This document shows, piece after piece, positions 16,597 to 44,194 of a stretch of 64,000 nucleotides of DNA (the first letter of the stretch is position 1; the number at the start of each line of letters is the position of its first letter). Location: contig NZ_LT607413.1 in NCBI RefSeq assembly GCF_900091495.1, forward strand, positions 6,401,001-6,465,000, given 5' to 3'. A program made the position numbers and the translations under genes. Source of the DNA: Micromonospora echinospora. Lineage in GTDB: Bacteria > Actinomycetota > Actinomycetes > Mycobacteriales > Micromonosporaceae. The notes below the pieces were generated by a model that had not been told where the DNA came from, made no database searches, and saw only the letters and a program-made list of their open reading frames with translations.

Positions 16597-17910
16597 TCAG
16601 GTGACCGCACGCCGGTCGAGTTCGTCGGCGAGCAGGGCGGCCAACCGGTCCAGACCGAGGTCGATCTGCGCACCGGTGACCGCGCTGACCGACAGCCGCA
16701 GGGCCTCGACCGGAGCGGTGTCGTCGTAGAAGTGGGCCATCGGCGTCCAGAGCACGCCGTACTCCTGCGCGGACCGGGCCAGCAACGCGTCGTCGACCGG
16801 GAACGGGACGGTCACCACCGCGAAGAAGCCGCCGGCCGGGACGGTCCACCGCACCGGGGACGGCGGCGGGAAGCGCCGGGCCAGGCCGGCGACGAGGTGC
16901 CGCAGGTTACCGGCGTAGACCGCCCGTTCCCGCCCGTTGGCCCGGGCCAGGCTGCACCCGTGCGCCAGCAGCCGGCCGCCGACCACGGCCTGGGCGATGG
17001 GCGAGGTGTTCACGGTGACCATGCTCTTGATCTTGGCGAGCTGGTCGGCGAGCAGCCCGACGGTCCCGTCCGCGCCCCGGACCCGCTGGTCGGCCACGAC
17101 GTAACCGACCCGCGCGCCGGGCAGCACGGTCTTGGCGAACGAGCCGAGGTAGACCACCCGGCCCCGCTCGTCGAGCGCCTTCAGGGTGGGCAGCCGGGCC
17201 GTGCCGTCGGCCGGGAAGAGGCCGTACGGGTTGTCCTCGATCAGCAGCAGGTCCTCCGCCTCGGCCAGGTCGAGCAGCCGGCGGCGGTCGGCGAGGCTGA
17301 TGCTCACCCCGGACGGGTTGGCGAAGTCCGGCATCACGTAGCAGGCCCGGGGACGCTCCCCGGCGGCCCGGGCCTGGTCCAGTCGGCTCCGCAGGTCGGC
17401 CAGGTCGATGCCGTCCGGCCCGCCCCGGACCGGCCGGACCGGGAAGTCCAGCAGCCGGGCCGCCCCGGTGAGCCCGACGTAGGTGGGCGCGACCGCGAGC
17501 AGGACGTCCCGGGGATCGGCGCGCAGCGCCCGCAGCACCAGGAACATCGCCTCCTGGCAGCCGACGGTCACCACCACCGCCTCCGGGTCGACCGTGACGC
17601 CCTCGTCCACGGCCAGGTTGCGGGCGATCAGCTCGTGCAGGATGCCCTTGGTGCGGCCGTACTGGAACAGGGTGCGCCGGACACCCGCCTCGTCCTGGCC
17701 GAGCTCGTCGGTCAGGTACCGGCGGAACCGGTCCAGGTGGCGGGGCAGGTCGTCGGCGTCGAAGAACTCCTCGTACGGCCGTCCGGCGGCCAGGCTGACC
17801 GCGTCCGGGTACCGCTGGGCCACCTCGTTGAGGAAGTTCATCGAGTTCAGCGCGGGATCGTCGACCGCCGGGTGCAGCGCGGCGACGTCGATCTCCACCG
17901 GCGCGCTCAT
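16597..17910 (-). CDS. hpgT: 4-hydroxyphenylglycine (HpgT-type) aminotransferase
   Basis: A 437-residue fold-type I PLP aminotransferase resembling HpgT, which converts 4-hydroxybenzoylformate (or the 3,5-dihydroxy analogue) to the phenylglycine. Visible motifs: ALNSMNFLNEVAQRYPDAVS near the N-terminus, FQYGRTKGI, the PLP-pocket segment MPDFANPSG, LLIEDNPYGLF, and the Schiff-base Lys in YLGSFAKTVLPGARVGY. There is no N-terminal DNA-binding domain, so it is not a MocR regulator. It is last in a four-gene leftward operon after P450, hydrolase and Hmo; the ATGA overlap with hmo links it directly to the enzyme making its oxoacid substrate. A general aromatic aminotransferase role is possible, but the neighbours favour HpgT. 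Confidence 0.85.
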   Translation of the reverse strand: MSAPVEIDVAALHPAVDDPALNSMNFLNEVAQRYPDAVSLAAGRPYEEFFDADDLPRHLDRFRRYLTDELGQDEAGVRRTLFQYGRTKGILHELIARNLAVDEGVTVDPEAVVVTVGCQEAMFLVLRALRADPRDVLLAVAPTYVGLTGAARLLDFPVRPVRGGPDGIDLADLRSRLDQARAAGERPRACYVMPDFANPSGVSISLADRRRLLDLAEAEDLLLIEDNPYGLFPADGTARLPTLKALDERGRVVYLGSFAKTVLPGARVGYVVADQRVRGADGTVGLLADQLAKIKSMVTVNTSPIAQAVVGGRLLAHGCSLARANGRERAVYAGNLRHLVAGLARRFPPPSPVRWTVPAGGFFAVVTVPFPVDDALLARSAQEYGVLWTPMAHFYDDTAPVEALRLSVSAVTGAQIDLGLDRLAALLADELDRRAVT

Positions 17911-19052
17911 CGGTGCCCCCCGGTCAACGCGCGCAGCTCCCGGGCCTCGGCCGGGTCGGCGCAGCCGGCCAGGACCAGCGCGTCGCGCAGCTCCTCGGCC
18001 AGCAACGACAGGGCACGTTCCGCGCCGGAGCGCCCGCCCGCCGCCAACGCCCAGAGCATCGGCCGGCCGACCAGCACGCCGCTCGCGCCGAGCGCCAGGG
18101 CGCGCAGCACGTCGGTCCCGCCGCGCACCCCGCTGTCCAGCAGCACCTCACCGCGACCGTCGACGGCCGCGAGGACCTCGGGCAGCATGGTGACGGCGGC
18201 CGGCGCCCCGTCGAGCTGCCGGCCACCGTGGTTGGAGACCACCACCGCGTCCGCGCCGACGGAGGTGGCGAGGGCGGCGTCACGGGGGTCGAGGATGCCC
18301 TTCACCAGCAACGGCAGCCGGGTCTCCGACCGCAGCCACTCCAGGTCCGACCAGGTCAGGGCGGGAGCGAACACCGCGTCGGTGTGCGCTGCCACCGCCG
18401 ACACCCCGGGGGTGCCCTGGTGGGCGAGGTCGTTCCGGCCGCCGGGCAGGTTCGCGGCCACCACCTCGGCGGGCAGGCGGAACGCGTTGCGCAGGTCGCG
18501 CAGGCGGCGGCCGAGCACCGGCACGTCGACGGTCACCATCAGCGCCGTGCAGCCGGCCTCCTCGGCCCGGGCCAGCAGGTCGACGACCAGACCCCGGTCC
18601 CGCAGCCAGTACAGCTGGAACCAGACGTCCGCGCCGGTCGCGGCGACCTCCTCGATCGGGCAGCTGCCCAGGGTGCTGGCCACGTAGGGCACACCGGCCC
18701 CCCGGGCCGCCGCCGCGAGGGCCAGCTCCCCGTCCGGGTGCACCAGCTTCTGGTACGCCATCGGCGCGACCGCCACCGGCAGCGCCGCCGGCCGACCGGC
18801 GAGGACGGCGTCCAGTCGAGGGGCACCGGACCCGCGCAGCACCCGGGGCAGCACGGCGACCCGGTCCAGGGCCGCCCGGTTGGCGGCGAGGGTGGTCTCC
18901 GCGCCGCTACCCCCGGAGACGAAGTCCCACACGTCGGCGGGCAGCACGGCGCGGGCCGCCGCCGCGAAGTCGGCCAGGCAGACCGGCTGCTCCCCGGTGG
19001 TGGTCCCGGGTCCGACCGACGCGCCGGCGGGGGTCACGACGGACTCAGCCAT
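17907..19052 (-). CDS. hmo: 4-hydroxymandelate oxidase (FMN alpha-hydroxy acid oxidase)
   Basis: A 381-residue FMN-dependent alpha-hydroxy acid oxidase. In order: WDFVSGGSGAETTL near residue 40, PVAVAPMAYQKLVHP, TVDVPVLGRR, LLVKGI (FMN-contacting Lys), the catalytic His/Arg loop VVSNHGGRQLDG, and the FMN-phosphate site VLLDSGVRGGTDVLRALALG. The family includes glycolate and lactate oxidases. The ATGA-coupled HpgT and the HmaS gene 12 kb away point to oxidation of 4-hydroxymandelate to 4-hydroxybenzoylformate. The start at 19052 overlaps the upstream hydrolase by eight bases. Confidence 0.88.
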   Translation of the reverse strand: MAESVVTPAGASVGPGTTTGEQPVCLADFAAAARAVLPADVWDFVSGGSGAETTLAANRAALDRVAVLPRVLRGSGAPRLDAVLAGRPAALPVAVAPMAYQKLVHPDGELALAAAARGAGVPYVASTLGSCPIEEVAATGADVWFQLYWLRDRGLVVDLLARAEEAGCTALMVTVDVPVLGRRLRDLRNAFRLPAEVVAANLPGGRNDLAHQGTPGVSAVAAHTDAVFAPALTWSDLEWLRSETRLPLLVKGILDPRDAALATSVGADAVVVSNHGGRQLDGAPAAVTMLPEVLAAVDGRGEVLLDSGVRGGTDVLRALALGASGVLVGRPMLWALAAGGRSGAERALSLLAEELRDALVLAGCADPAEARELRALTGGHR

Positions 19053-20043
19053 CGGCCCGCCTCGCGCCCGCCGGCCCCCGGTCCGGGCCGGAGCCCGCTC
19101 CGGCCGCCGGAGCGTGCAGGCGGGCCCGCAGCCAGCCGGCCGCCCGGTCGAGGGCATGCCGCCCCCCGTCGAGGACGCCGGACATGGCGAAGAACCCGTG
19201 GATCATGCCGGCGTAGCGGGCCAACTCGGTCGGCACGCCGGCCTCGCGGAGCCGTTCGGCGTACCGCTCCCCCTCGTCGCGCAGCGGGTCGTACTCGGCG
19301 GTGATCACCAGCGCCGGAGGCAGGCCGCCGAGGTCCTCGGCGAGCAGCGGCGAGGCGAGCGGGTTCCGCCCGTCCGCCGGGTCGGCCAGGTAGTGCCCCC
19401 AGTACCAGTCGACCGAGGTCCGGTTGAACAGGTACGGGTCCTCCGACTCACACATCGAGTCGGTCTCGCCCCGGTACAGGGTGTTCGGGTAGACCAGCAG
19501 CTGCCCGGCGAGCGCCGGCACGCCGTCCCGGCGGGCCAGCAGGGTGACCGCCGCGGCGAGGTTCCCACCGGCGCTGTCCCCGCCGACGGCCAGCCGGGCC
19601 GGGTCGACGCCCAGCTCGTCGGCGTGCGCGGCGATCCAGGCGGTGGCGGCGTGGCAGTCCAGCACCGCCGCCGGGAACCTGTTCTCCGGGGCGAGCCGGT
19701 AGCCGACGGTGATCACCTGACAGGGCACCGCGTTGGCCAGTCGACGGCAGATGCCGTCGGCGGTGTCGATGCTGCCGAGGGTCCAGCCGCCGCCGAAGAA
19801 GTAGACCAGGGTGGGCAGCGGCCCGTCGCCGGCCGGACGGTAGATCCGGATCGGCAGGTCCCCGGCCGGGCCGGGGACGGTCCGGTCGCGTACCTCGTGC
19901 ACCGGCTCGGCGTCGCCGCCGCCGGCCCGGATCGCGGCCAGGTCGGCGGCGCGGGCCTCGGCGAGGGTCTGGGTGTAGAGCTGGGGCGTACCGGCCGCCG
20001 CCCGGCGGGCGCGGTACGCCAGGACCTGCGGGTCCAGTGGCAT
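19045..20043 (-). CDS. Alpha/beta hydrolase (hormone-sensitive-lipase family) with altered oxyanion motif
   Basis: A 332-residue esterase/lipase-like hydrolase. The nucleophile Ser is in GGDSAGGN, the acid in TAEYDPLRDEG, and the His in GMIHGFFAM. Where the family normally has H-G-G-G-W, this protein reads YFFGGGW, so the first oxyanion-hole His is Phe. It lies between P450 and hmo in the Hpg-type operon (9-base gap, then 8-base overlap). It may release a thioester- or ester-bound product, but nothing in sequence fixes the substrate. Confidence 0.85.
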   Translation of the reverse strand: MPLDPQVLAYRARRAAAGTPQLYTQTLAEARAADLAAIRAGGGDAEPVHEVRDRTVPGPAGDLPIRIYRPAGDGPLPTLVYFFGGGWTLGSIDTADGICRRLANAVPCQVITVGYRLAPENRFPAAVLDCHAATAWIAAHADELGVDPARLAVGGDSAGGNLAAAVTLLARRDGVPALAGQLLVYPNTLYRGETDSMCESEDPYLFNRTSVDWYWGHYLADPADGRNPLASPLLAEDLGGLPPALVITAEYDPLRDEGERYAERLREAGVPTELARYAGMIHGFFAMSGVLDGGRHALDRAAGWLRARLHAPAAGAGSGPDRGPAGARRADG

Positions 20044-20052
20044 GTCGGTCTC

Positions 20053-21270: not shown

Positions 21271-21301
21271 GTGCGGTGCTTCCTCCCCAGGAATGACGGC
21301 A

Positions 21302-21332
21302 GGAAGCGGCGGGGGATCTCCCCGCCGCTTCC
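21302..21332. terminator. Terminator hairpin after the SGNH hydrolase gene
   Basis: A 13-bp perfect stem (GGAAGCGGCGGGG and its complement) with a five-base loop lies just downstream of the leftward SGNH hydrolase stop (21342) and upstream of the P450 start. It should isolate the P450 operon from read-through. Confidence 0.75.
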
Positions 21333-21341
21333 GACGCGCTG

Positions 21342-22649
21342 TTACAGGTCGAGCAGCCGCAGGTTGACGGCGTCGGCCATGGCCTTGTTGCCCAGGTCGT
21401 TCGGGTGGATGTGGTCCCCCGAGTCGTACGCGGGCAGCAGCCGGCTCGGCTGTGCCGGGTCACGGAGCACCTGGTCGAAGTCGAGCACCCCGTCGAACTC
21501 GGTGCTGCCGCGCAGGTACGCGTTGACCGCCTGCCGGGTCGCCTCCTTCTCCGGCGTCCAGACGCCCACGGCGCCGTGCCCCTCGTACGGGGTCAGCGTC
21601 GCGACCAGGCTGGTCAGCCCACGCTGCTTCACCTGCTGGTTGATCTGCCGCAGGCTGGCGATGATGCTCTCGGCGGAGTCGCCCGACATCCAGATGTCGT
21701 TGATGCCCAGGTGGGTGACGACGGTCCGCACGCCGGTCTGGGCGAAGACGTCCTCGTTGAGTCGGGCCACCGCGTTCGGTCCCAGCTCGTGGTAGCCGGG
21801 GAAGCCACCCGCGCCGGGCTCGGTGCCCTCGTGGTTGAGCCGGTTGCCGGCGAGGCTGGCGTTGAGCACGCCCGGCGTGCGGACCTCGGAGCGGGTGTCG
21901 ATCAGCCGGTCGGCGAGGAAGTCCGGCCAGCGCTTGTTGGCGTTGACCGTGCTCGCGTTGCCGTCGCCGATCGAGTCGCCGAGGACCACCACCGCGCCCG
22001 GGCTCTTGCGCCGCTCGACGTCCACGCCGGAGAGGAAGAACCAGCAGCAGTCCGGGCGGATGGTGAAGCCCGCCCCGCCGGCCGCGCCGGTCAGGTCGGT
22101 GGCCCCGATGTACGTGGTCTGCCGCGACTGGCCGTGGAAGGTGACCGGCCCGGTCGAGGTCGGGAAGTGCAGGGTCACCACCAGGTCCTGCTGCTCGCCG
22201 ACGGGCAGGTCGACCGGGTCGCTGAGCAGTTCCCCGCCGCGGTTCATGGTGGCGGTGGCGGAGCCGCCGAAGGTCAGCTCCCGCAGCGTCCCGGTGTCGA
22301 CGTCGGACAGGTCGTTCGGGGTGCTGGTGTTCGGCTTGGCGACGGTGGCCCGACCGAGCTTGACGGCCTGCTCACCGAAGATGTTGCTGAGCCGGATGCG
22401 CAGCCGGTCACCACCGACGGTGGTGTGCACGACCATCCGGACACTCTGGTTGTTCAGCCCGGTGTTGGTCAGCCCGACCGAGTTGCCCCGGGTGACCGCG
22501 GCGGCCCAGGTGCCCGCCCACACGTCGCGCGATCGGTCGTTGCGGTTGACCTCGGCCGACGGGCCGGCACTGGCCACGACGGCGGGTGTGCCCGTGACCA
22601 GCAGCGCCGTGGCGGCAGCCACGACGTGCCATCTTTTCGGGGTCGACAT
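21342..22649 (-). CDS. Secreted SGNH/GDSL-type hydrolase
   Basis: A 435-residue exported hydrolase. The signal peptide is residues 1-28 (basic start, then AAATALLVTGTPAVVASA). The N-terminal ~190 residues are a beta-rich module. The catalytic domain has the nucleophile Ser in VVVLGDSIGDG, the Gly/Asn blocks in NASLAGNRL and HLGINDIW, and the Asp/His pair in YDSGDHIHPND. Such enzymes deacylate polysaccharides or lipids outside the cell. It stands alone between two terminators or promoters. Nothing ties it to the pigment-like pathway around it. Confidence 0.9.
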   Translation of the reverse strand: MSTPKRWHVVAAATALLVTGTPAVVASAGPSAEVNRNDRSRDVWAGTWAAAVTRGNSVGLTNTGLNNQSVRMVVHTTVGGDRLRIRLSNIFGEQAVKLGRATVAKPNTSTPNDLSDVDTGTLRELTFGGSATATMNRGGELLSDPVDLPVGEQQDLVVTLHFPTSTGPVTFHGQSRQTTYIGATDLTGAAGGAGFTIRPDCCWFFLSGVDVERRKSPGAVVVLGDSIGDGNASTVNANKRWPDFLADRLIDTRSEVRTPGVLNASLAGNRLNHEGTEPGAGGFPGYHELGPNAVARLNEDVFAQTGVRTVVTHLGINDIWMSGDSAESIIASLRQINQQVKQRGLTSLVATLTPYEGHGAVGVWTPEKEATRQAVNAYLRGSTEFDGVLDFDQVLRDPAQPSRLLPAYDSGDHIHPNDLGNKAMADAVNLRLLDL

Positions 22650-22715
22650 TGAACCTCCATTATCGGCAGCCCGGGGGCCGGCCGCTGGTCGGCGGCGCCC
22701 GGACGATGGTCCAGA

Positions 22716-22744
22716 AACCTAACGGCGCTGCTGACAGGGGTCAA
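22716..22744 (-). promoter_or_regulatory. Sigma-70-like promoter of the SGNH hydrolase gene
   Basis: On the minus strand, TTGACC (22744-22739) and TAGGTT (22721-22716) are separated by 17 bases. The predicted start of transcription is ~60 bases before the ATG at 22649. Consensus quality is good for an actinomycete housekeeping promoter. Confidence 0.55.
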
Positions 22745-22969
22745 TCAACCGGAACGACATGATCAACTACTGCCCGGACGACGCCCTCCGACGATCGGCT
22801 CTGGTCCGTGCCGACACCGTCCACCTAGGCTCGACGAGCGGCGGTGCGGGTGGTCGGCGGTGGCGCCGGGGTCCCGTCACCGGCCGACACCCCTCCCCGG
22901 ACGCGTCCGCACCAGGTTCCCTGTGGACCTCGCGTCCGGCGACCACCCCGCACGGATGGGAGCTGCCGC
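22745..22969. other. Upstream part of the divergent SGNH / AMP-ligase intergenic region
   Basis: The full divergent gap is ~320 bases (22650-22969). Apart from the leftward promoter annotated separately, I see no gene. The part nearest the ligase holds its ribosome site (GGGAG at 22958). No convincing rightward promoter is visible. Confidence 0.5.
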
Positions 22970-24535
22970 ATGGCCGACGGGTCCACGCACCGGACGAGCT
23001 ACGTACACGACGCCCTGGCCCTCTTCGTCGGGTTCGGCGACCGGGAGGCACTGGTCGCCGACGGACGACGGCTCTCCTACCGGGACGTCGCCGACGCGGT
23101 CCGCTCCCTCGCCGGCAACCTGCACCGGCACGGGGTGCGGCCGGGCGCGGCCGTGCTGGTGATGGCCGGCAACGTGGCCGAGGCGCCGCTGCTCCAGCTC
23201 GCGCTGCACCTGCTCGGCTGCCGGTCGATGTGGATCGCCCCGGTCACCTCCCGCCGGGAGATCGAGGAGTTCGCCCGGCGTTCCCGACCCGACGTCTTCG
23301 TCCACGACGCCCGCGACGGGGCGCGGGCCGCGGAGATCGCCGCGGCGCTGCCCGGCGTACCGGTGCTCTGCCTGGGCACCGGGGCCGGACCCGACCTGAC
23401 CGCGCCGGGTGACCCGGCCGACGTCGCCGCGCTGCCGGCGTCGGTGCCGGAGCCGGAGTCGTTCCTCCAGACCAGCGGCAGCACCGGCGTACCGAAGCTG
23501 GTGCACCACCGGGAGAGCTTCTACCGGCAGGTCCTCGCCATCGCCGAGGCGATCCGGGGCAGCGGCGCACCGCTGCTGCGGCACCTGTCGCACTCCCCCA
23601 TGTGGATCGCCAGTGGACAGGTCACCACGCTGGTCAACCTCTTCACCGGCGGGGTGCTCTTCCCCGCCGAGGGGTGGGATCCGGCCCGGTTCATCGCCAC
23701 CGTGCACACCGAGAAGATCAACTCTACCTTCCTCACCCCACCGATGCTCTACGAGGTGCTCGACCACCCGGCGCTGGCGGACGCGGACTTCTCCGCCATG
23801 TTCATGTTCAACGTGGGCGGTGGTCCGGCCGCGCCCGCGCGGCTGCGCCAGGCCATCGCCCGGTTCGGTCCGGTGATGCGCATCGTGTACGGGCTCAGCG
23901 AGGCCGTGATCGTCACGGCGCTGCCGCAGTTGACCGAGGACCCGGCGCACCCGGAACGGCTGCGCTCCTGCGGCCGGCCGTACGGGGACGTCGCCGTGGA
24001 GATCCGCGACAGCGACGGACAGGTGCGTCCCCCCGGGGCCAGGGGCGAGGTGTGGGTACGCACGAAGCTCAGCTTCGTCGGGTACTTCGGCCAGCCGGAG
24101 CTGACCGCCGACACGCTGGTCGACGGCTGGGTGCGCACCCGCGACATCGGGTACCTCGACGCCGACGGGTACCTCTACCTCGTCGACCGGTGGTCCGACC
24201 GGATCCTCACCCAACGGCGCGCCTGGCCGATCTACAGCCGCCCGATCGAGGACGTGCTCGCCGGGCACCCGCAGGTCGCCGCGGCGGCGGTGGTCGGGGT
24301 GCCGGCCGGCGACGGCGCCGAGGCGCCGTACGCGTACGTGGTGCGGACCCCGGGAGCGACCGTCACCGGGACGGACCTGGTCGACCTGGTCACCCGGGAG
24401 CTCTCCGACCTGTGGGCGCCGCAGGGGGTGGAGTTCGTCGACCGGCTGCCGGTGAACCGGTCCAACAAGGTGGACAAACGCGCCCTGCGCGACCGGTACG
24501 CCGCCGGTCGAGGCGTGCCCGACACCGTGCGGTGA
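22970..24535 (+). CDS. AMP-dependent acyl/aryl-acid synthetase (adenylate-forming)
   Basis: A 521-residue ANL-superfamily ligase. The phosphate loop is LQTSGSTGVPKLVHH; other core motifs are VYGLSEAVI, GEVWVRT, GWVRTRDIGYLDADG and YLVDRWSDRI. The C-terminal catalytic Lys is in RSNKVDKRALRD. No carrier domain is attached, so it makes an acyl-CoA or loads a separate ACP. ATG 22970 has GGGAG seven bases upstream; the frame before it crosses non-coding sequence. It is divergent from the SGNH hydrolase. It may belong to the surrounding biosynthetic region, which has two further AMP ligases and free ACPs. Its acid substrate is unknown. Confidence 0.85.
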   Translation: MADGSTHRTSYVHDALALFVGFGDREALVADGRRLSYRDVADAVRSLAGNLHRHGVRPGAAVLVMAGNVAEAPLLQLALHLLGCRSMWIAPVTSRREIEEFARRSRPDVFVHDARDGARAAEIAAALPGVPVLCLGTGAGPDLTAPGDPADVAALPASVPEPESFLQTSGSTGVPKLVHHRESFYRQVLAIAEAIRGSGAPLLRHLSHSPMWIASGQVTTLVNLFTGGVLFPAEGWDPARFIATVHTEKINSTFLTPPMLYEVLDHPALADADFSAMFMFNVGGGPAAPARLRQAIARFGPVMRIVYGLSEAVIVTALPQLTEDPAHPERLRSCGRPYGDVAVEIRDSDGQVRPPGARGEVWVRTKLSFVGYFGQPELTADTLVDGWVRTRDIGYLDADGYLYLVDRWSDRILTQRRAWPIYSRPIEDVLAGHPQVAAAAVVGVPAGDGAEAPYAYVVRTPGATVTGTDLVDLVTRELSDLWAPQGVEFVDRLPVNRSNKVDKRALRDRYAAGRGVPDTVR

Positions 24536-24651
24536 TCCCCGCGCCGGTAGCGCGGACTGGCCCGCCGCCACGCCCGCACCGCGCGCGCCCGGAGGGCACC
24601 GCCGGTGGCGGGTAGGGTGATAGTCCCGCGCCGCCTGCCCCGGAGGGTCCG

Positions 24652-25425
24652 ATGACCACGTCCACCGCTGCCGACCTGCCCGATCTGTTGGCCGCCGGGG
24701 CGGTCACCGGGACGGACGATCCGCTGCTCACCTTCTACGACGACGCGACCGGCGAGCGGACGGCGCTGACGGCGGTGGAACTGGGTGGCTGGGCCGCCCG
24801 AACGGCGGGACTGCTGCGCGACGGGTGCGGGCTGGGCCCGGGGAGCCGGGCCGCCGTACTGCTCCCTCCGCACTGGCAGACCGCCGCCGTGCTGCTGGGC
24901 GCGTGGGCGGCGGGGGTGTCGGTGTCGTTCCGGGGCTGGGCCACCGCCGGGTTGCCCCAGGTGGGGCCGGGCGCAAACGAACCGCTGGACGCCAGCTTCG
25001 TCGCCCGGCACCGGGTCGGCAACTGGTTGGACAACCCGCCCGAGGCCACCCACCGTTTCGTCCTCGGCCTCGGGCCCGCCGGCGCACCACCGGCGGAGCC
25101 GCCCACCGGGTACCGCGACTTCCTCACCGAGGTATGCCGGTACCCGGCCAGCCTCCCGCCGTACGCGGCCGTCCGCCGGTCGGACGCGGCCAGCGTCGAC
25201 GGCACCAGCTACCGGCAGTGGGGGGACGTGGCCCGGGGCGTCGCCGAGGCGTGCGGCCTGCGGCGGGGCGACCGGATCCTGGTCGACGCGGCCACGCACG
25301 AGGAGCCGGTGACGTGGCTGCTGGCCCCGCTCGCGGTCGGCGCGTCGGTGGTGGTCTGCGCCAACCTCGACCGCGCCCGGCTCGACGAGCGCATCGCCAC
25401 CGAACAGGTCACCCGCGTGCTCTAG
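24652..25425 (+). CDS. TIGR03089 family protein
   Basis: A 257-residue protein of the actinobacterial TIGR03089 family, related to the N-terminal half of ANL adenylating enzymes but lacking the phosphate-loop and C-terminal domain. Recognisable stretches are DPLLTFYDDATGERT, GLGPGSRAAVLLPPHWQTA, LGAWAAGVSVSFRGWA, and a C-terminal GASVVVCANLDRARLDERI. It is usually a core actinobacterial gene of unknown function. Its presence here suggests that 24-26 kb is ancestral chromosome interrupting the biosynthetic genes. Confidence 0.8.
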   Translation: MTTSTAADLPDLLAAGAVTGTDDPLLTFYDDATGERTALTAVELGGWAARTAGLLRDGCGLGPGSRAAVLLPPHWQTAAVLLGAWAAGVSVSFRGWATAGLPQVGPGANEPLDASFVARHRVGNWLDNPPEATHRFVLGLGPAGAPPAEPPTGYRDFLTEVCRYPASLPPYAAVRRSDAASVDGTSYRQWGDVARGVAEACGLRRGDRILVDAATHEEPVTWLLAPLAVGASVVVCANLDRARLDERIATEQVTRVL

Positions 25426-25605
25426 CCGACACCCCGGAACGTCACCGGCTGTGCTGACGCCAGAGAGTGGCCGTTCCACCCGCTGCCCCCGGGCAGCGGT
25501 GGACGGTCCCGGCCGGGAGGGTCTCCGGCGCCAGCGGCGACGGCGGACCGGGGTCGGCCGTCCGGACGCTGGTCCACACGGCCGGGGTCCACTACGGTGC
25601 CGGGC

Positions 25606-26307
25606 ATGCCGACGACACTGACCGAATCCACCGATCCGTACTGCCTGCGCGACGGCGAAAGTGCCACGCTCCTCGCCGGGCACCCGTGGCGACGGTTCGT
25701 GGTGCTCGGTGACAGCGTGGCCGAGGGACTCTGCGAGCCGGTCGACGGCTACAGCCCCCTCCAGTGGGCCGACCGGATCGCCGCCGAGCTGCGGGCGGTC
25801 CGTCCCGAGCTGGTCTACCTGAACCTCGGGCAGCGCGGACTGCGGGCCCACGAGGTGCACGCCGAGCAGCTGCGCCCGGCCCTGGACTTCGGCCCCGACC
25901 TGGCGCTGGTGGTCTGCGGCGGCAACGACGCGTTCCGTCCGGCGTACGACGCGGAGGCGGTCGACGCCGAGCTGGACGTCATGGTGACCGCGTTGCAGCG
26001 GGCCGGGGCGGACGTGATCACCGTCGGCATGTTCGACGTGTCGAACAGCCCGGCCGTGCCGGACAAGGTCCGTCCGGGGCTGCGCGAGCGGATGCGCCTC
26101 CTCTCGGCGCACACCGCCCGGCTCGCCGACCGGCTCGGCACGCTGCACGTGGCGCTGACCGACCATCCGCTCACCGCCGATCCGTCGATCTACAGCAGCG
26201 ACGGGCGGCACGGCAGTGGGCGCAGCGACGCGATCGCCACCGCCGAGACCGTCCGCCGGTTGCACGCCCACCTCACCCGCGAGGGGACGCCGGCACGGAG
26301 GACGTGA
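25606..26307 (+). CDS. Cytoplasmic SGNH/GDSL hydrolase
   Basis: A 233-residue SGNH hydrolase without a signal peptide. Block I is FVVLGDSVAEGLCEP (nucleophile Ser); the Gly block is LNLGQRGLRAHEV; the Asn block is LVVCGGNDAF. In the C-terminal block the Asp/His pair is replaced by the looser SDGRHGSGRSD, whose His may serve. The substrate, a carboxylic ester or thioester, is unknown. An in-frame GTG at 25597 is an alternative start adding three residues. It is followed after 62 bases by the convergent ATP-grasp gene. Confidence 0.82.
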   Translation: MPTTLTESTDPYCLRDGESATLLAGHPWRRFVVLGDSVAEGLCEPVDGYSPLQWADRIAAELRAVRPELVYLNLGQRGLRAHEVHAEQLRPALDFGPDLALVVCGGNDAFRPAYDAEAVDAELDVMVTALQRAGADVITVGMFDVSNSPAVPDKVRPGLRERMRLLSAHTARLADRLGTLHVALTDHPLTADPSIYSSDGRHGSGRSDAIATAETVRRLHAHLTREGTPARRT

Positions 26308-26369
26308 CCGACGTCCCCGGCCGGCCGTCACCCGCCACCGGTACGGCGACCGCCGCCGCGGCGGGCGGG

Positions 26370-27728
26370 TCAGCTGGTGAGCATGATGCCGGAGAGCAGG
26401 ACGCCCCGGGAGAGGTTGAGCACGCCCTCGCATCCCGGGAAGCCGGACCGGACGCAGGCGTTCGCCAGTTCCCGCCCGAACAGGTACGGCGCGATGCTGT
26501 AGGGCACCTCCTCGGTCACCGTCTCCCCGGTCTCGATGTGCACGAAGTCCATCGGGACCACGTCGGCGTGGGCGTACTCCTGGAGGATGTAGCCGCCCCG
26601 GTCGATGCCCCGACGCAGCGCCTCGCGCCAGGTGTCCGCGTCGGACTCCCGGCCGATGACCACGTCCACGCCGGCCGACCCGTCGGCGGGCTTGGAGACC
26701 AGGTCGTGCTGGCCGGCCACGGCCGTGTCGTACCCGTCGGCGGTGAGCAGTTCGGTGCGGGGCAGGTGCCGACGGACGATCGCCTGGTCGTTCGCGTCCA
26801 GACGGTCCAGGTCGGACCAGAGCCAGGCGAGCAGCTGCTTGTTGCCGAGCAGCCAGGCCGCGCCGGAGGTGAAGGCCGGCAGCCGACCGGAGAGCACCAG
26901 GGTCTCCAACGCGTCCAGGCCGGGGCCACGGGTGACCCGGTTGAGCACGAAGAGCCGGAACACCCCGTCGACCGGTCGGCCGGCGACCAGCGGGCCGCCG
27001 TCGTCGGCGACGCTGACCGAGGTGACCGCCTCGATCGGCATCACCAGGCCGAACCGCGCGGCCCGCTCGGTGACCGGGGCGAGCACGCGACGCATCAGGT
27101 CCGGATCGTCCAGACCCGGGTAGTCGGCCTCGAAGTCCAACAGCAGCGGCACCACCGCCCCCTCGGGCAACCCGAGCGTGGCGCGGATCGCCGCGAACCG
27201 GGTGTCCATCGCTGACGGGGCCGGCCCCATCGGGACCGCGTCGAGCAGGCCCCGCTCCCGGTAGACCCGGGTGAACCGGTCAAGGACCGTGTCGGCGTCC
27301 AGGACCCCGCCGATGCTGCTGTCGATGTTGAACTCGACGACCCGCGGCACCCCGTCGCTGAGCAGCACGTCGGGCCGGACGGCGGCGAGCAGGTGCGCGC
27401 CGAGCGGCTCGTCGGTGGGGAGCATCCGGGTGTCGACCGGGTCGACACCGAGCAGCCCGGCCAGCTCACCGGCGGTCCGGGCCCGCCGCTGGGCGGCGTC
27501 CAGGAGCAGCTGGGCCAGCCGGTCGACGACCGCGACCATCATCCGGTAGCTCTCCGCGGTCAGGACCGGCGGCCGGGCCATCCGCCACTGCTTGTTGTAC
27601 GTGGCCCGGCCGTGGAAGATCTCCGCCCAGTGCTCGGCGCCGGCGGCCACCATGCCGGCGCGGACGGACTCCGGCAGGTCGAACCACGCCTGCCCGGCGG
27701 CGGGCCAGTCGTACGTCGCGTCGATCAT
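26370..27728 (-). CDS. Circularly permuted ATP-grasp-like protein (putative ligase)
   Basis: A 452-residue protein similar to circularly permuted ATP-grasp and glutathionylspermidine-synthase-like ligases. The segment RVVEFNIDSSIGG near residue 140 corresponds to the family's E-x-N-x-D block. ATP-grasp-like elements follow in LLGNKQLLAWLWSD, DLVSKPADGSAG and GGYILQEYAHADVVPMDF. Such enzymes join a carboxylate to an amine through an acyl phosphate. It is the last gene of the HmaS operon, its ATG directly abutting the E1 beta stop. It could therefore amidate or peptidyl-couple an arylglycine or aroyl product. Assignment to a particular subfamily is tentative. Confidence 0.7.
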   Translation of the reverse strand: MIDATYDWPAAGQAWFDLPESVRAGMVAAGAEHWAEIFHGRATYNKQWRMARPPVLTAESYRMMVAVVDRLAQLLLDAAQRRARTAGELAGLLGVDPVDTRMLPTDEPLGAHLLAAVRPDVLLSDGVPRVVEFNIDSSIGGVLDADTVLDRFTRVYRERGLLDAVPMGPAPSAMDTRFAAIRATLGLPEGAVVPLLLDFEADYPGLDDPDLMRRVLAPVTERAARFGLVMPIEAVTSVSVADDGGPLVAGRPVDGVFRLFVLNRVTRGPGLDALETLVLSGRLPAFTSGAAWLLGNKQLLAWLWSDLDRLDANDQAIVRRHLPRTELLTADGYDTAVAGQHDLVSKPADGSAGVDVVIGRESDADTWREALRRGIDRGGYILQEYAHADVVPMDFVHIETGETVTEEVPYSIAPYLFGRELANACVRSGFPGCEGVLNLSRGVLLSGIMLTS

Positions 27729-28700
27729 TCAGCTGTCCTTCGTGACGTGGTGGATGGCGGCGGTGAGCTGTTCCCGGCTGGGCTGCACGGCCCGGTCCAG
27801 GGCCTGCGCGAACGGCAGCACCGCACCGTCCGGGCGGGTGACCCGGGCCGGGGGCGCGACCATCGGGACGCGTTCGGCCATGGTCGCGATGATCTCCCCG
27901 GCGATGCCGCAGGAGCGGTTCGAGTCGTCCACGACGACCAGCCGGCCGGTCCGGGCCACGGACGCGGCCAACCCGTCCCAGTCGAACGGGTAGAGGGTGC
28001 GCGGGTCGAAGACCTCCACCGACACCTGGCCGGCGAGGTCCTCGGCGACGGCGAGCGCGTCGTGCAGCAGGTGACCGACGGCGACCACGGTGACGTCGGT
28101 GCCGGGACGGCGTACCGTGCCGACGCCGAGCGGCACCGGGGCGAGGGCGGCGAAGTCCACGTCGTCGCGGACGCCGAGCGCCCCGGCCGGGGCGAAGACC
28201 ACCACCGGGTCGTCGTACCGGATCGCCGAGACCAGCAGCCCGTACGCGTCGGCCGGGGTGGCCGGGACGACGGTGGTGATCCCGACGTGCGCAAAGAGGC
28301 TGTACGGGTGGTCGGAGTGCTGCCCGGCCCAGCCGGTCCGGGACCCGGAGCCGGGCACCAGGTAGGTGACCGGGGCGGCGCACTGCCCGCCGGTCATCAG
28401 CGGAAACTTGTGCGCGTGGTTGACGATCTGCTCGAAGACGAGGAACAGCAGGGACGGGATCTGGAACTCGATCACCGGCCGCATCCCGGCCAGGGCCGCC
28501 CCGGTGGCGAAGCTGGTGAACGCCTGCTCCGACAGCGGGGTGTCGAGCACCCGGTCCGGGCCGAACCGTTTGAGCAGTCCGGCGGTGACGTTCGACGCGC
28601 CGACCCGGATGTCCTCGCCGAGCAGGAACACACCCTCGTCGCGGGCCAGTTCGTCGCCGAGCGCCCGGTTGAGCGCCTTGAGGTACGACAGCCGTGGCAT
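27729..28700 (-). CDS. 2-oxoacid dehydrogenase E1 beta subunit (biosynthetic-region copy)
   Basis: A 323-residue E1 beta (transketolase pyrimidine domain plus C-terminal domain). Motifs: LSYLKALNRALGDELARDEG, FLLGEDIR, TPLSEQAFTSFATGAALAG, and the C-terminal VVVDDSNRSCGIAGEI. Its ATG overlaps the E1 alpha stop (TGATG), so the pair is coupled. No E2 or E3 gene is in the window. In pristinamycin phenylglycine synthesis, an E1-like pair (PglB/PglC) makes an aryl-acetyl-CoA from an aryl pyruvate. Here, beside HmaS and Hmo, 4-hydroxybenzoylformate is the obvious candidate substrate. This is inference. Confidence 0.92.
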   Translation of the reverse strand: MPRLSYLKALNRALGDELARDEGVFLLGEDIRVGASNVTAGLLKRFGPDRVLDTPLSEQAFTSFATGAALAGMRPVIEFQIPSLLFLVFEQIVNHAHKFPLMTGGQCAAPVTYLVPGSGSRTGWAGQHSDHPYSLFAHVGITTVVPATPADAYGLLVSAIRYDDPVVVFAPAGALGVRDDVDFAALAPVPLGVGTVRRPGTDVTVVAVGHLLHDALAVAEDLAGQVSVEVFDPRTLYPFDWDGLAASVARTGRLVVVDDSNRSCGIAGEIIATMAERVPMVAPPARVTRPDGAVLPFAQALDRAVQPSREQLTAAIHHVTKDS

Positions 28701-29671
28701 CAGTGGCTCCCCGCCCGGGCGACCAGCCCGCTCGCGTACAGGTGATCGAGGGCCCCGGCCGGGTCGGGTTCCGGGCCGGCGAGGGCGAACTCCACCGCCC
28801 CGGCCAGCAGCGCCTCGACTTCGGCGTCGACCCGGTCCCGCACGTCGGCGGCGAGCCGGTCGCCCTGGATGGCGACCGGGTCACGGGAGCGGCCCCGGGC
28901 CACCTCGTCCGCGTCGCGGTAGTCGAGGCGTACCGCGTGTTCGAAGGTGTGGTGGGCGTCGAACCGGTAGGTGCGGGCCTCGACCAGCTCCGGGCCTCCG
29001 CCGGCGCGGGCCCGGGCCACGGCGGCGGCGGTGACGTCGCGGACCGCCTCCGGGTCCTGGCCGTCCACCACGGACGCCCGGATGCCGAACGCCTCGGCGC
29101 GGCCGGTGATGGTGCCGGCCACCGCGCCGTCGACCGGCATGGTGGTGGCGTAGCCGTTGTTCTCGCAGACGAACAGCACCGGCACCCGCCAGAGGGCGGC
29201 CAGGTTGAACGCCTCCAGCAGCATGCCCTCGTTGACCGCGCCGTCGCCGAAGAAGCTCACCCCGACCTGGTCGCCGCCGCGTCGGCGCAGCGCCCAGACC
29301 GCGCCGGTGACGATCGCCCCGGACGCGCCGACGATGGCGTTGGCCCCGTAGACGCCGACGCCGAAGTCGGCGGCGTGCATCGAGCCGCCCCGGCCCCGGT
29401 TGAGGCCGTTCTCCCGGCCACACAGCTCGGCGAGCATCCGGGCCGGGTCGGCGCCCTTGGCGAGGACGTGCCCGTGCCCGCGGTGGGTGCCGGCGACGAT
29501 GTCGTCCGCCCGGAGGGCGCCGCAGACACCGGCCGCGACGCCCTCCTGCCCGAGGTACGGATGGATGCCGCCGACGATCGCGCCGGAGCGGACGAGGTCG
29601 ATCGCCCGCTCCTCGAAGCGTCGGATCAGCCGTACGGTCCGGTAGAGCCGGACCGCCTCGGGCTCGGCCAC
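28700..29671 (-). CDS. 2-oxoacid dehydrogenase E1 alpha subunit (biosynthetic-region copy)
   Basis: A 323-residue E1 alpha. The ThDP motif is intact: FFGDGAVNEGML followed ~25 residues later by CENNGYATTM. Other family signatures are HPYLGQEGVA, GTHRGHGHVLAKG and GRGGSMHAADF, which resemble acetoin/pyruvate-type E1 alpha more than the branched-chain copy at the left edge. GTG 29671 is chosen because it shares a base with the DUF3050 stop (TAGTG) and begins the conserved AEPEAVRLYRTVRLIRRFEE. It is the fourth gene of the HmaS operon. Confidence 0.92.
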   Translation of the reverse strand: MAEPEAVRLYRTVRLIRRFEERAIDLVRSGAIVGGIHPYLGQEGVAAGVCGALRADDIVAGTHRGHGHVLAKGADPARMLAELCGRENGLNRGRGGSMHAADFGVGVYGANAIVGASGAIVTGAVWALRRRGGDQVGVSFFGDGAVNEGMLLEAFNLAALWRVPVLFVCENNGYATTMPVDGAVAGTITGRAEAFGIRASVVDGQDPEAVRDVTAAAVARARAGGGPELVEARTYRFDAHHTFEHAVRLDYRDADEVARGRSRDPVAIQGDRLAADVRDRVDAEVEALLAGAVEFALAGPEPDPAGALDHLYASGLVARAGSH

Positions 29672-30465
29672 TATCCGCGCCCCTCCTTGACGGCGGCGAG
29701 GATGTCGTCCCAGAGCCGGGCCCGGGCGGCGAGCGCGGTGTTGACCGTGTCGGCGCACTCCTGCCACTTGGCGTCGTCGTCGCCGCACAGGTCGGCGAGC
29801 ATCTGCATGGCCATCGGGGTGTGCTGCTCCCCGTCGACCTCGATGTGCCGCTCCAGGTAGTCGACGAACTTGTTGAGCTTCTGGCTGCGCTCGTTGACCG
29901 CGACGACCTGGGTGAACATCTCCGGGATCAGGTCCTCCCGGCCGAACGCGAAGGCCGCCGCCTGGCAGTGCACCGGGGTGTTCTCGATGATGTTCCAGGT
30001 GGTGCCGGCGAAGGCCGCCGACGGGGCGGGCACGCCCGCCTCGACCAGCGCCTCGGTCACGCCGCGTCCGGCGCGCAGCAGGTCGACCAGGTTGTCGACG
30101 GCGGTGGTGTCCGCGCCGGCCTCGGCCATGCCCTGCACGTACAGCTCGAAGTGGCTGATGTAGCCGTCGCCGAGTTCGTCGCTCTCCTCCACCATCACGA
30201 TGTCGTTGATCAGGCGGCGGCTGCCGGTCGGCCCGGTGGGGATCCACGGGACCGTGACGCAGGTGAGCTGCCGCTGGAGCGACTTCAGCAGGGACATGAA
30301 GTCCCAGACGGCGAAGACGTGGTGCTCCATGAAGGTCACCAGCGCGGCATGGGTGTCCAGGTTGGCGTAGAGCGGGTGCTGGACCACCACGTCCCGGCGG
30401 GCGGTGACCGCCTGCTCCAGCCGTTCGATCCCCGGGTGGGTCTTGCCCCAGTCGTACCGTGACAT
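29671..30465 (-). CDS. DUF3050 haem-oxygenase-like (possible di-iron) protein
   Basis: A 264-residue all-helical protein of the DUF3050 family, which has the haem-oxygenase/TenA-like fold. Candidate metal ligands are EHH at residues 47-49 with Asp 55, the [17 protein letters not shown] stretch, the [12 protein letters not shown] helix, and [13 protein letters not shown] near the C-terminus. The E/H/D...H spacing recalls haem-oxygenase-like di-iron oxidases (UndA, SznF, BesC type). No biochemical role is established for DUF3050 that I know of. It sits between the 2OG dioxygenase (2-base gap) and E1 alpha (1-base overlap), so it is firmly part of the HmaS operon and probably acts on an aromatic amino or oxo acid. 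Confidence 0.8.
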
Positions 30466-30467
30466 TG

Positions 30468-31403
30468 TCAGCCTCCTTGCCGGGCGCCAGCGCGCCAGAT
30501 GACCGGACAGAATTCGGGGTCGGCGTAGTCCGGTCGCCCGTCGGCGGTGCGGCGGACCAGCACGTCGTGGTTGTACGCGGCGAGCGTGCCGTCGGAGAGC
30601 GGATACTCCCGCCAGCCGTTGTCGCCGTCCTGCAGGTGCAGCGAGACGGCCCGACGCGGGCGTCCGCTGACGTTCGCGCCGCTGCCGTGGTAGGTGCGGC
30701 AGTGGTGGAAGCTCACGTGCCCCTTGGGGATCACCATCGGGATCTTGCGGATCTCCGCGCCGTTGTGGGCCGCGTTCTCGGCCAGCATCACCTCGAGCTG
30801 ACTGCGGTCGCGGTCGGCGAAGTGGCGCACCACGGTGTCGTCGGCGCCGATCTCCCGCCAGCGGTGCGAGCCGTCGACCATGGTGATGGTGCCCATCTCC
30901 TCACCGCAGTCGTGGAACGGGATGAACGCGGTGAGCATGTTCTCCGACGACGAGGACGCCCAGTAGTGCTTGTCGAAGTGCCAGGGCACGATGTTGCTCG
31001 GCTCGCCGGAGATCGGCGGCTTGTAGATCAGCGTGGACTGGAACACCCGGATCTCGTCGGCCCGGGCGAGCCGGGCGGCGACCGCGCCGAGCAGCGGCTT
31101 GCGCAGGATCCGGCTGAGCGCGTCGTGTTCGTGGTGGACGTAGTCGTTGTGCCGCTGCACGTCGCCCCGGTCCGGCTCCCAGTAGGCGAGCTTCGGCGGG
31201 CGCACCGGCAGCCGCCGGTCCCGCTCGCCGGCGTAGTAGCGGTCGGACGCGGCGACGAGTTCGTCGACCTCGGCGTCGGTGAAGAGCTTCTTCGACAGGT
31301 ACCAGCCGTGTTCGGCGTAGAAGGCGACGTCGTCGTCCGAGGGGAGCAGTGCCTCCTCCTCGGCGGTCAACGCCGGGGTGATGTCGGTCGTGGTCGTGGT
31401 CAT
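30468..31403 (-). CDS. Phytanoyl-CoA dioxygenase-family Fe(II)/2-oxoglutarate oxygenase
   Basis: A 311-residue PhyH-type non-haem iron oxygenase. The first ligands H-x-D are in [11 protein letters not shown]. The distal His is in [16 protein letters not shown], followed by the 2-oxoglutarate-binding Arg region [15 protein letters not shown]. Proteins of this type hydroxylate, desaturate or halogenate small molecules or carrier-bound acyl groups; with Asp present, hydroxylation is more likely than halogenation. Its ATG overlaps the HmaS stop (ATGA), so it is coupled to 4-hydroxymandelate synthesis. Confidence 0.88.
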
Positions 31404-32491
31404 GCCCCCACCTCCTGGGGAGCCGCCGCGGTGGCGGCCAGCTCCCGTTCCTTTGCCTCGTAGAGCGCCTTGATGTTGCCGCTGCCGAAGGTGAGCGCCC
31501 CCCGGCGCTCGATCAGCTCCAGGAAGAGCGTCCGGCGGACGTGCATCGACTCGGTAAAGATCTGCATCAGCTGGCCGGCGTGGTCCCGGTCGACCAGCAC
31601 CCCCAGGTCCCGCAGCCGGTCGATCGGGGCCTGGAGCCGGCCCACCCGCTCCTCCAGGGCGTCGTAGTAGCTGCCCGGGGTGCCGGCGAAGCGGACGCCC
31701 CGGGCGGACAGCTCCTCGACGGCGGCGATGATGTCGTCGGTGCGCAGCCCGAGGTGCTGCACCCCGGCCCCGGCGTGCTGGGTGAGGAAGGTGTCGATCT
31801 GCCCCGGGCGGCGGGTCACGTCCGGCTCGATGATCACCAGGGTGACCTGTCCCGACGGGCTCTGCACCACGCGGGAGTGCATGCCCTGGCCGGCCACCTC
31901 GATGTACTCCTCGAAGATCTCGGCGAAGCCGAAGACGTCCCGGTAGCGCCGGATGGTGTCGTCGAGTTGGCCGGGCGGCACGCAGATCGCCAGGTGGTCG
32001 ATGTCGGTGAGCGGCCCGCCGTCCACGCCGGCCGGGACGGGCAGCATCTCGACCGCGCCGGGCAGGAACTCGCTCCGGTCGCCGTCGCGCTGCACCAGCC
32101 GGTGCCGCACGTCGCCGAAGCCGCCGACCTCGGCGACGACCACCGTGGCGTCCGCGCCGGTGAAGGTGCGCGGCGCGCTCACCCCGGTCGCGCCCCGGGC
32201 CAGCAGCTCGGCGTACGACCCGGCGGCGTCGTCGACCTCCAGCGCCACCACGGCGATGCCGTCACCGTGCCGCTGCACGTACGTGGCGGCGGGGTGCTCG
32301 GCGGTCAGCCCGGAGGTGAGCACCATCCGGACGTCGGCCTGGCGCAGCAGCAGCGACCGCTGGCCGGTCAGCCCGGTCTCCGGACCGCCCTGGCCGCAGA
32401 GGTGGAAGCCGACCGCCGTGCCGAAGTAGAAAGCCGCCTGTCGGGCATCCCCCACGAACATCTCGATGTGGTCAATTCCACGGATCTCCAT
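31400..32491 (-). CDS. hmaS: 4-hydroxymandelate synthase
   Basis: A 363-residue VOC-fold dioxygenase of the HPPD/HmaS family. The three iron ligands are His in DIDHLAICVP, His in AGVQHLGLRTDD, and Glu in TLFLELIERRG. The N-terminal VOC repeat starts IRGIDHIEMFVGDARQAA. HmaS turns 4-hydroxyphenylpyruvate into 4-hydroxymandelate; HPPD makes homogentisate from the same substrate. HmaS is favoured because Hmo and HpgT, the next two pathway enzymes, are encoded at 16.6-19.1 kb and no homogentisate catabolism genes are present. It is the first gene of a six-gene leftward operon; the 66 bases before it must hold its promoter unless it is co-transcribed with the KS gene. Confidence 0.88.
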   Translation of the reverse strand: MEIRGIDHIEMFVGDARQAAFYFGTAVGFHLCGQGGPETGLTGQRSLLLRQADVRMVLTSGLTAEHPAATYVQRHGDGIAVVALEVDDAAGSYAELLARGATGVSAPRTFTGADATVVVAEVGGFGDVRHRLVQRDGDRSEFLPGAVEMLPVPAGVDGGPLTDIDHLAICVPPGQLDDTIRRYRDVFGFAEIFEEYIEVAGQGMHSRVVQSPSGQVTLVIIEPDVTRRPGQIDTFLTQHAGAGVQHLGLRTDDIIAAVEELSARGVRFAGTPGSYYDALEERVGRLQAPIDRLRDLGVLVDRDHAGQLMQIFTESMHVRRTLFLELIERRGALTFGSGNIKALYEAKERELAATAAAPQEVGA

Positions 32492-37117: not shown

Positions 37118-37355
37118 CTGCGGAGGCGGTCAGCCAGGCGCGGAAGACCTCCCGGGCGTCGTCGACGGTGCGGATCCCGGCGAGCTGGTCGTCGGTGAGG
37201 TCGAGGCGGGTGTCGTAGCGCTGCTCGACGAGGTGCACCAGCCAGGCCAGCTCCATCGAGCCGAGCCGCTCGGGCACCTCGGACGCCGGCCGGTTGGTCA
37301 GCTCGGCGAGCATCTCGACCAGTTCCGCCCGTTCGGGTCCGGGGCGGGCGGCCAT
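37110..37355 (-). CDS. Acyl carrier protein (first of two)
   Basis: An 81-residue ACP-like protein. The likely phosphopantetheine site is Ser33 in ERLGSMELAWLVHLVEQRY; the usual Asp before Ser is Gly here. Helix II is strongly acidic/hydrophobic as in ACPs. It overlaps the KS-like gene (8 bases) and shares TGATG with the second ACP gene. It probably carries the starter or growing chain in the aryl-polyene-like module. The atypical D-to-G change leaves some doubt about activity. Confidence 0.8.
   Translation of the reverse strand: MAARPGPERAELVEMLAELTNRPASEVPERLGSMELAWLVHLVEQRYDTRLDLTDDQLAGIRTVDDAREVFRAWLTASADG

Positions 37356-42936: not shown

Positions 42937-42940
<4 letters not shown>
41666..42940 (-). 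CDS. Type II PKS ketosynthase alpha
   Basis: A 424-residue KS-alpha. Complete catalytic set: Cys in [16 protein letters not shown], His in [11 protein letters not shown], Lys/His in [15 protein letters not shown]. The C-terminus has [15 protein letters not shown]. The context (cupin, KS-beta, ACP, aromatase, TcmI cyclases) matches spore-pigment (WhiE) and tetracenomycin-like loci making long aromatic polyketides. It is ATGA-coupled to the cupin upstream. Confidence 0.95.

Positions 42941-44194
<1,254 letters not shown>

Follow-up and report, generated by a model that had tools for sequence, protein, structure and literature searches.

4-Hydroxyphenylglycine (Hpg) is made in glycopeptide-type pathways by the products of an HmaS-Hmo-HpgT gene cassette. 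In the PglB/PglC route to an arylglycine, PglB/C act on phenylpyruvate, before an arylglyoxylate forms (PMC7089894). E1-like enzyme pairs also occur in sugar pathways: EvdU5/EvdS3 of everninomicin is hypothesized to be a thiamine diphosphate (ThDP) enzyme transferring acetyl to UDP-4-keto-xylose (PMC10338323), and AviB1/AviB2 function in two-carbon branching of the avilamycin sugar, with Pau11/Pau12 proposed to act alike and a pau11 mutant made (PMC4425429). Nitrite-using enzymes that form N-N bonds include Tri17 (structures 9bq0 and 8tf7; PMC11705231), and leudiazen, a diazeniumdiolate, requires mgoBCAD (PMC8473136). Here, we describe a gene cluster in a 64,000-nucleotide stretch of the Micromonospora echinospora genome (the window; contig NZ_LT607413.1, positions 6,401,001 to 6,465,000), in which Hpg genes, a putative small type II polyketide synthase (PKS), an ANL enzyme of the diazotase family, and an E1alpha/E1beta pair of ThDP enzymes stand together.

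The cluster combines known kinds of enzyme in a new way, and its gene identities, operon layout, co-occurrence, and E1 phylogeny are established. From the sequences, we read it as a single Hpg/type II PKS/diazotase-family cluster whose E1 pair would act as a C2-transfer carboligase, a picture that as a whole has about an even chance of being correct. The initial annotation of this DNA knew of no described pathway with this combination, and literature searches on the cluster and its markers likewise gave no published description of it or its product, although a conserved type II PKS cluster of M. lupini (PMC4182475) may be this region. Reactive diazo compounds readily escape routine isolation (PMC13061610), and such a loss could explain why the cluster has been overlooked. 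It is found in 96 of the 160 species sampled from an antibiotic-producing genus and in members of other genera, and its product could be chemically unusual.

Organization and conservation of the cluster

The cluster spans approximately 16.6-39.6 kb of the window, in a complete genome of 7.78 Mb, and consists of two minus-strand gene runs with a few plus-strand genes between them (Table 1). The first run (HmaS-PhyH-DUF3050-E1alpha-E1beta-ATP-grasp) has intergenic gaps of -4 to +2 bp, and the second (GDSL-P450-alpha/beta-hydrolase-Hmo-HpgT) gaps of -8 to +71 bp. These coordinates bear out the two operons named in the initial annotation, but the first of them does not end at HmaS. The end of the ketosynthase gene KS1 lies 66 bp from the HmaS start, and upstream of KS1 are the genes for the ANL enzyme, a ketosynthase (KS) N-terminal-like protein, KS2, and the acyl carrier proteins (ACPs) ACP2 and ACP1, mostly overlapping and with one 137 bp gap. 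The HmaS-headed operon extends upstream to at least position 37624 and probably to 39603, taking in the ligase gene AMP3, which is separated from ACP1 by 632 bp.

The Hpg route proposed in the initial annotation is supported by Pfam and PDB matches and by cassette context. The best solved match of HmaS is 2r5v (310 bits; labelled PCZA361.1, which we take to be an HmaS), ahead of chains labelled 4-hydroxyphenylpyruvate dioxygenase (HPPD; at most 275 bits, with 246 bits for HPPD 1t47), and the same genome encodes a separate HPPD-type paralog with 42% identity; by these comparisons the protein is HmaS rather than HPPD. Hmo matches the 4-hydroxymandelate oxidase 5zzp at 391 bits and the next kind of enzyme, a lactate oxidase, at 305 bits. 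HpgT is a class I/II aminotransferase by Pfam, and its more specific name follows from a contiguous HmaS-Hmo-HpgT cassette in another species (L195; loci are numbered L and genomes G). Hmo and HpgT thus accompany HmaS, as predicted for Hpg biosynthesis.

Searching named genomes for the ATP-grasp family gave 85 loci, of which the best 80 were kept, and 69 of these have an E1beta neighbor and are treated as cluster loci. Of the 69, 66 have HmaS, and the three without it are truncated at contig ends, one with the gene just outside the fetched part. The proposed association of the E1 pair with Hpg genes is therefore upheld. DUF3050 is missing in L017, L029, L066, L074, and L087, with only 12-146 bp left between PhyH and E1alpha, and is partial in L018. 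Loci with the hydrolase gene and enough flanking sequence have Hmo (25/25) and HpgT (11/11). The cluster also occurs in Salinispora, Kribbella, and Actinophytocola, so that its carriers include both soil and marine bacteria. A record named Streptomyces sp. SID13031 (L064) carries a Kribbella-like cluster, and its organism name may be wrong.

Within the genus as defined by GTDB, which comprises Micromonospora and Salinispora, we searched 160 genomes with identity floors of 81% for E1beta (full length), 56% for ATP-grasp, 80% for the diazotase-like gene, and 75% for HpgT. E1beta is present in 96 genomes and ATP-grasp in the same 96; 95 of these have the diazotase-like gene (four partial, and one missing at a contig end), and cluster-type HpgT is found in 93 of the 160, once in two pieces. 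The other 64 genomes have none of these genes at these levels, except for fragments or interrupted copies in five and divergent copies in G029. Fisher p values for co-occurrence are below 1e-40, in genomes that are related and hence do not represent independent events. Cluster-type HpgT is missing from three of the 96: G095 (no match, in a genome of 230 contigs), G135 (where a 60% gene lies elsewhere), and G151. The cluster of G151 also lacks HmaS and PhyH, the only such case seen in any species, and G151 has a separate HmaS-Hmo-HpgT cassette. The five genomes with fragments or interruptions (G019, G049, G068, G137, and G141) have such copies of E1beta or HpgT but not the cluster, which suggests loss from an older common state.

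The E1 pair and the accessory genes

Relative to the window pair, the E1s of the cluster show 72-86% identity in Salinispora, Actinophytocola, Kribbella, and a second Micromonospora. The nearest relatives found outside the cluster are in the Micromonospora-group loci L191 and L192 (59-60% for alpha, 64% for beta), and L191 is identified as an everninomicin cluster by a full-length EvdO2 match of 592 bits and a methyltransferase-PhyH fusion; three S. virginiae matches, each followed by an E2 gene, are 31-40% identical. In trees of 19 rows each, with two support values per clade, E1beta joins the everninomicin pair with 100/100 and E1alpha with 85/87, apart from E2-coupled E1s. The motifs HHT(F/V)E with an insertion in E1alpha, and QIP-LL and QHSD-PY in E1beta, are shared with the evd pair and not with E1s followed by an E2 (as recognized by Pfam), and no lipoyl or E2 family was matched among the window proteins scanned. 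The grouping with a sugar-branching pair and the shared motifs suggest that the cluster pair, too, moves a C2 unit. As no nucleotide-sugar genes were found among the cluster proteins scanned, the acceptor of that unit would have to be something other than a sugar.

Divergent relatives indicate which genes travel together. L176 comes from a different family within the order. It has AMP3, ACP1, ACP2, KS2, the KS fragment, the diazotase-like gene, KS1, HmaS, PhyH, Hmo, HpgT, and the hydrolase at about 45-68% identity, together with a free-standing condensation domain, a glycosyltransferase, and an ABC transporter. A loose search within 20 kb of L176 found no E1, DUF3050, or ATP-grasp gene, and its whole genome (G406) gave no DUF3050 match at E <= 1e-20. 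The E1 pair therefore looks accessory, and it is separable from the Hpg route, since L176 has no E1 in its 20 kb and the cluster of one species (L104) keeps E1 but lacks HmaS. From these comparisons the most stable part of the cluster appears to be its Hpg, PKS, and diazotase-like genes, to which E1, DUF3050, and ATP-grasp would be common additions. There are two exceptions. G029 (L188-L190) has KS1, the diazotase-like gene, Hmo, the hydrolase, PhyH, HmaS, the KS fragment, KS2, AMP3, one ACP, and the E1 pair, and no HpgT, ATP-grasp, or DUF3050 gene was found within the 50 kb fetched. L147-L148, a second Actinophytocola locus, has HmaS, both ACPs, the E1 pair, a P450, and an O-methyltransferase, with no match to a KS, the diazotase-like gene, or HpgT in 40 kb; L147 also has nitronate-monooxygenase-family and anthranilate-synthase-like genes.

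The DUF3050 protein has E93, H105, E177, H207, D211, and H215, invariant in 17 sequences; their numbering agrees with that of the six predicted diiron ligands of the family (PMC4520260), all of which the protein keeps. A role as the N-oxygenase of pvf/mgo was considered and rejected: we take the AurF-like gene (mgoC) to encode that enzyme, and MgoB has no assigned activity in the accounts consulted. DUF3050 genes of other actinomycetes (L119-L133) have another AMP-binding-type gene in their short flanks (~1.5 kb) at 6 of 15 loci. The ATP-grasp protein has no Pfam match, and its family profile reaches a best E of only 0.052 against solved structures. It is 88-89% identical to genes of two other genomes and 57-65% to those of seven other Micromonospora/Salinispora loci, whose E1beta is 83-88% identical; the genes fall into discrete types with conserved neighbors, and four of the 69 loci (L064, L065, L076, and L077, Kribbella-like) have two to three copies. 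This variability and the extra copies fit a ligase whose substrate changes.

The diazotase-family enzyme and a proposed pathway

The ANL enzyme scores 506-507 bits against NF058622, the AvaA6 diazotase model, below the curated cut-off of 975, and it is therefore not an AvaA6 equivalog. Its best solved matches are 8ztz (423 bits; listed with no function label) and Tri17 (9bq0/8tf7; 331 bits), followed by 9xb8, a chain named FadD (278 bits), and then a next match of 94 bits; by these bit scores it appears closer to nitrite-using N-N enzymes than to ordinary ANL ligases. Among 394 sampled genomes of the class, 15 have a match to it at E <= 1e-90 and none exceeds the cut-off. Relatives are next to, or no more than about 6 kb from, CreD/CreE-type genes in L177 (by Pfam; we take these families to mean CreD/CreE) and homologs of these genes in L181, L182, and L183. 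A second diazotase-family gene (53-60% identical) occurs in 19 genomes, and in G029 it is the sole copy of that type; in L178/L194 it stands in a separate cluster that shares an ABC transporter and a glycosyltransferase with L176.

We propose the following pathway. HmaS and Hmo, to judge from their families, would convert 4-hydroxyphenylpyruvate to 4-hydroxybenzoylformate, which HpgT would aminate to Hpg. AMP3, ACP1, ACP2, KS1, KS2, and the KS fragment may constitute a small Ava-like type II PKS that loads and extends an aromatic or keto acid. The AvaA6/Tri17-family ANL would activate nitrite and form an N-N bond on a pathway amine – the weakest step – with Hpg as the candidate because it is the only amine expected from an identified gene of the conserved core. 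The E1 pair, following the proposal for its everninomicin relatives, would take an acetyl unit from pyruvate and add it to a keto group, and the ATP-grasp ligase may make an amide, perhaps with Hpg, a task for which the ATP-grasp-free relative L176 would have its free-standing condensation domain instead. PhyH, DUF3050, and the P450 would provide oxidative tailoring. The most specific form of this scheme, in which nitrite acts on the aliphatic amine of Hpg or an Hpg-bearing intermediate to give a stabilized aryl diazo or N-nitroso compound and E1 transfers a pyruvate-derived C2 unit onto an aryl keto acid or ketide, is unlikely to be right. If it is true, nitrosative N-N chemistry is joined with ThDP carboligation outside sugar metabolism, in a combination old in Micromonospora and present in 96 of the 160 sampled species.

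Several observations weigh against the proposed pathway. The function of the evd E1 is itself only hypothesized in print, and the tree program flagged long branches close to the E1 clade, arising from three orphan pairs that are possibly misplaced. In G029 the diazotase-like gene occurs without a nearby HpgT, the nearest being 49% identical and about 200 kb away. Ava includes a ketoreductase, a family that none of the cluster proteins scanned matched. An aspartate at the A4 position marks amino-acid-activating adenylation domains; Asp was found there in the one adenylation domain of a nonribosomal peptide synthetase (NRPS) that we compared, and Val in AMP3 and three relatives, which argues against an alpha-amino acid substrate. 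Hpg is thus probably not the PKS starter, and its direct use as one was rejected. The 3,4-AHBA (3-amino-4-hydroxybenzoic acid) synthase family PF01959 has no matches in the genome, and no match to PF13454 or PF00206 (CreE/CreD-type) was found among the window proteins scanned, CreD having been sought there and not genome-wide. A CreE-type query (the PF13454 protein from L177) against 14 genomes gave no match in eight, matches of about 30-41% in five (with one short piece at 50%), and itself in one; in G000 its match, outside the cluster, is at 33%. This query led us to reject a conserved aspartate-nitrosuccinate pathway as the source of nitrite. Neither the usual amine nor the usual nitrite source is therefore evident.

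The last of these points, the ANL score of about half the AvaA6 cut-off, and the 278-bit match to the FadD-named chain all speak for an alternative in which the ANL is an ordinary acyl or aminoacyl ligase descended from the diazotase clade, the PKS and ATP-grasp ligase giving N-acyl-Hpg with no N-N bond. This is possible, if on the unlikely side: the matches to 8ztz and Tri17 exceed that to the FadD-named chain, below which the first falls to 94 bits, several relatives are near CreD/CreE-type genes, and 72 of 134 published ava-like clusters are also reported without nitrite genes (PMC10777205). That the cluster instead decorates the aromatic polyketide of the neighboring spore-pigment-type type II PKS (40.4-47.6 kb) is very unlikely. 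Pigment-type KS and chain-length factor (CLF) genes adjoin it in 11 of 12 Micromonospora-group upstream regions, but the 8 kb upstream of AMP3 in L100 gave no match, nor did the corresponding upstream flanks of L149 (Kribbella) and L150, which carry other genes, and we rejected the spore pigment as part of the same pathway on these absences. The pigment-type genes of the window (40060-47581) encode a KS, a CLF, a cupin, an ACP-cyclase fusion, two TcmI-type cyclases, a SARP-type regulator, an FAD oxygenase, and an ABM monooxygenase.

The initial annotation suggested a different reaction for the E1 pair, a PglB/PglC-like decarboxylation of 4-hydroxybenzoylformate to a 4-hydroxybenzoyl thioester; on this reading the thioester would prime the PKS and Hpg would be made on a side branch. 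AMP3 is compatible with an acid starter, and E1 accompanies HmaS not just in the cluster loci (66 of 69, the rest cut) but again in L147-L148, where both ACPs are found without a match to KS, HpgT, or the diazotase-like gene. However, the cluster already has a ligase for loading an acid in AMP3, the Hpg and PKS genes recur in L176 with no E1 in its 20 kb, no E2 or lipoyl match was found among the window proteins scanned, and E1 groups with the everninomicin pair and not with E1s followed by an E2 gene. The E1 chemistry is better explained by the everninomicin relatives, and the trees and motifs led us to reject a PglB/C-like or acyl-thioester role as first choice; we consider it distinctly unlikely.

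Gene content and comparison with known systems

Table 1. Coordinates in the window, strand, and supporting matches of the cluster genes and their usual neighbors
Feature	Position	Strand	Evidence
AMP3, adenylate-forming ligase, proposed acyl-ACP loader (AvaA1-like position)	38257..39603	-	PF00501/PF13193; 76-88% identity, in place in 12/12 upstream regions
ACP1, carrier protein	37355..37624	-	PF00550
ACP2, small carrier-like protein	37110..37355	-	No Pfam match; ACP-like sequence, Ser at expected place by eye; conserved in 12/12 upstream regions
KS2, ketosynthase-like, CLF position	36032..37117	-	PF02801/PF00109; Cys of TTACVSAS kept
KS N-terminal-like fragment protein	35361..35894	-	PF13723, 26.3 bits; counterparts in 12/12 upstream regions (64-86%) and in L150/L176/L189 (53-57%)
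ANL enzyme, AvaA6/Tri17 diazotase clade	33790..35406	-	NF058622 506-507 bits (cut-off 975); PDB 8ztz 423 bits
KS1, FabF-like ketosynthase	32558..33793	-	PF00109/PF02801; best solved relatives are FabF enzymes
HmaS, 4-hydroxymandelate synthase	31400..32491	-	PDB 2r5v, 310 bits
PhyH-family Fe/2-oxoglutarate oxygenase	30468..31403	-	PF05721
DUF3050, heme-oxygenase-like diiron protein	29671..30465	-	PF11251 325 bits; PDB 9vwb 184 bits; ligands invariant
E1alpha, ThDP enzyme, everninomicin-type clade	28700..29671	-	PF00676; trees and motifs
E1beta, ThDP enzyme, everninomicin-type clade	27729..28700	-	PF02779/PF02780; clade 100/100 with evd E1beta
Circularly permuted ATP-grasp ligase	26370..27728	-	94 homologs, some so named; same 96/160 genomes as E1beta
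GDSL hydrolase, usual neighbor	25597..26307	+	PF13472; 57/69 loci, contig ends included
AMP1, acyl-CoA-ligase-like, usual neighbor	22844..24535	+	PF00501; 55/69 loci, contig ends included
GDSL hydrolase	21342..22649	-	PF13472
Cytochrome P450	20053..21270	-	PF00067
Alpha/beta-hydrolase	19045..20043	-	PF07859; kept in L176 and G029
Hmo, 4-hydroxymandelate oxidase	17907..19052	-	PDB 5zzp, 391 bits
HpgT, 4-hydroxyphenylglycine aminotransferase	16597..17910	-	PF00155; cassette context in L195

Beside AMP1, a short protein (24652-25425), 75% identical in L092, matches PF00501 at 35 bits but covers just the N-terminal part of this AMP-binding domain. Next to AMP1, L092 has an MFS transporter, for which the window locus has no room (24535-24652), and genes of similar size occur at the same place in L013, L096, and L098. 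At the left window edge (352-9114) are a second E1alpha, 35% identical to that of the cluster, and an NRPS with two condensation, two adenylation, and two carrier domains, both apparently unrelated to the cluster; the NRPS (2572-9114) has no match in the flanks of the two nearest relatives (L092 and L094).

Among the described systems, the mgo operon (PMC3298696) likewise places a DUF3050 gene, mgoB, in a secondary-metabolite operon, but its loss is reported to have only lowered mangotoxin production, and the cluster described here has no NRPS partner. Its HmaS, Hmo, and aminotransferase would lead to the same outcome, an arylglycine, as the glycopeptide-type Hpg cassette and the PglB/C route (PMC7089894), although no Hpg-loading NRPS is tied to them by synteny in the relatives looked at. 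The E1alpha/E1beta pair is of the kind in everninomicin (EvdU5/EvdS3) and avilamycin (AviB1/AviB2), with 60%/64% identity to the evd-cluster pair and shared motifs (PMC10338323, PMC4425429), in a setting where no nucleotide-sugar genes were seen among the proteins scanned. In the ava (avenalumic acid) and cma (p-coumaric acid) clusters, as described in PMC10777205, a ligase, two carrier proteins, a KS, a CLF, and an ATP-dependent diazotase-family ANL stand together as they do here. The present cluster differs from them in the absence from its genome of the 3,4-AHBA synthase family, in having no CreE/CreD-type or ketoreductase match among the cluster proteins scanned (the AvaA7 denitrification enzyme was not searched for), in an ANL that falls below the AvaA6 cut-off, and in its added Hpg genes, E1 pair, DUF3050, PhyH, and ATP-grasp. 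It thus offers a testable diazotase-family enzyme without the usual amine, together with a member of the AviB/Evd E1 family in a non-sugar setting.

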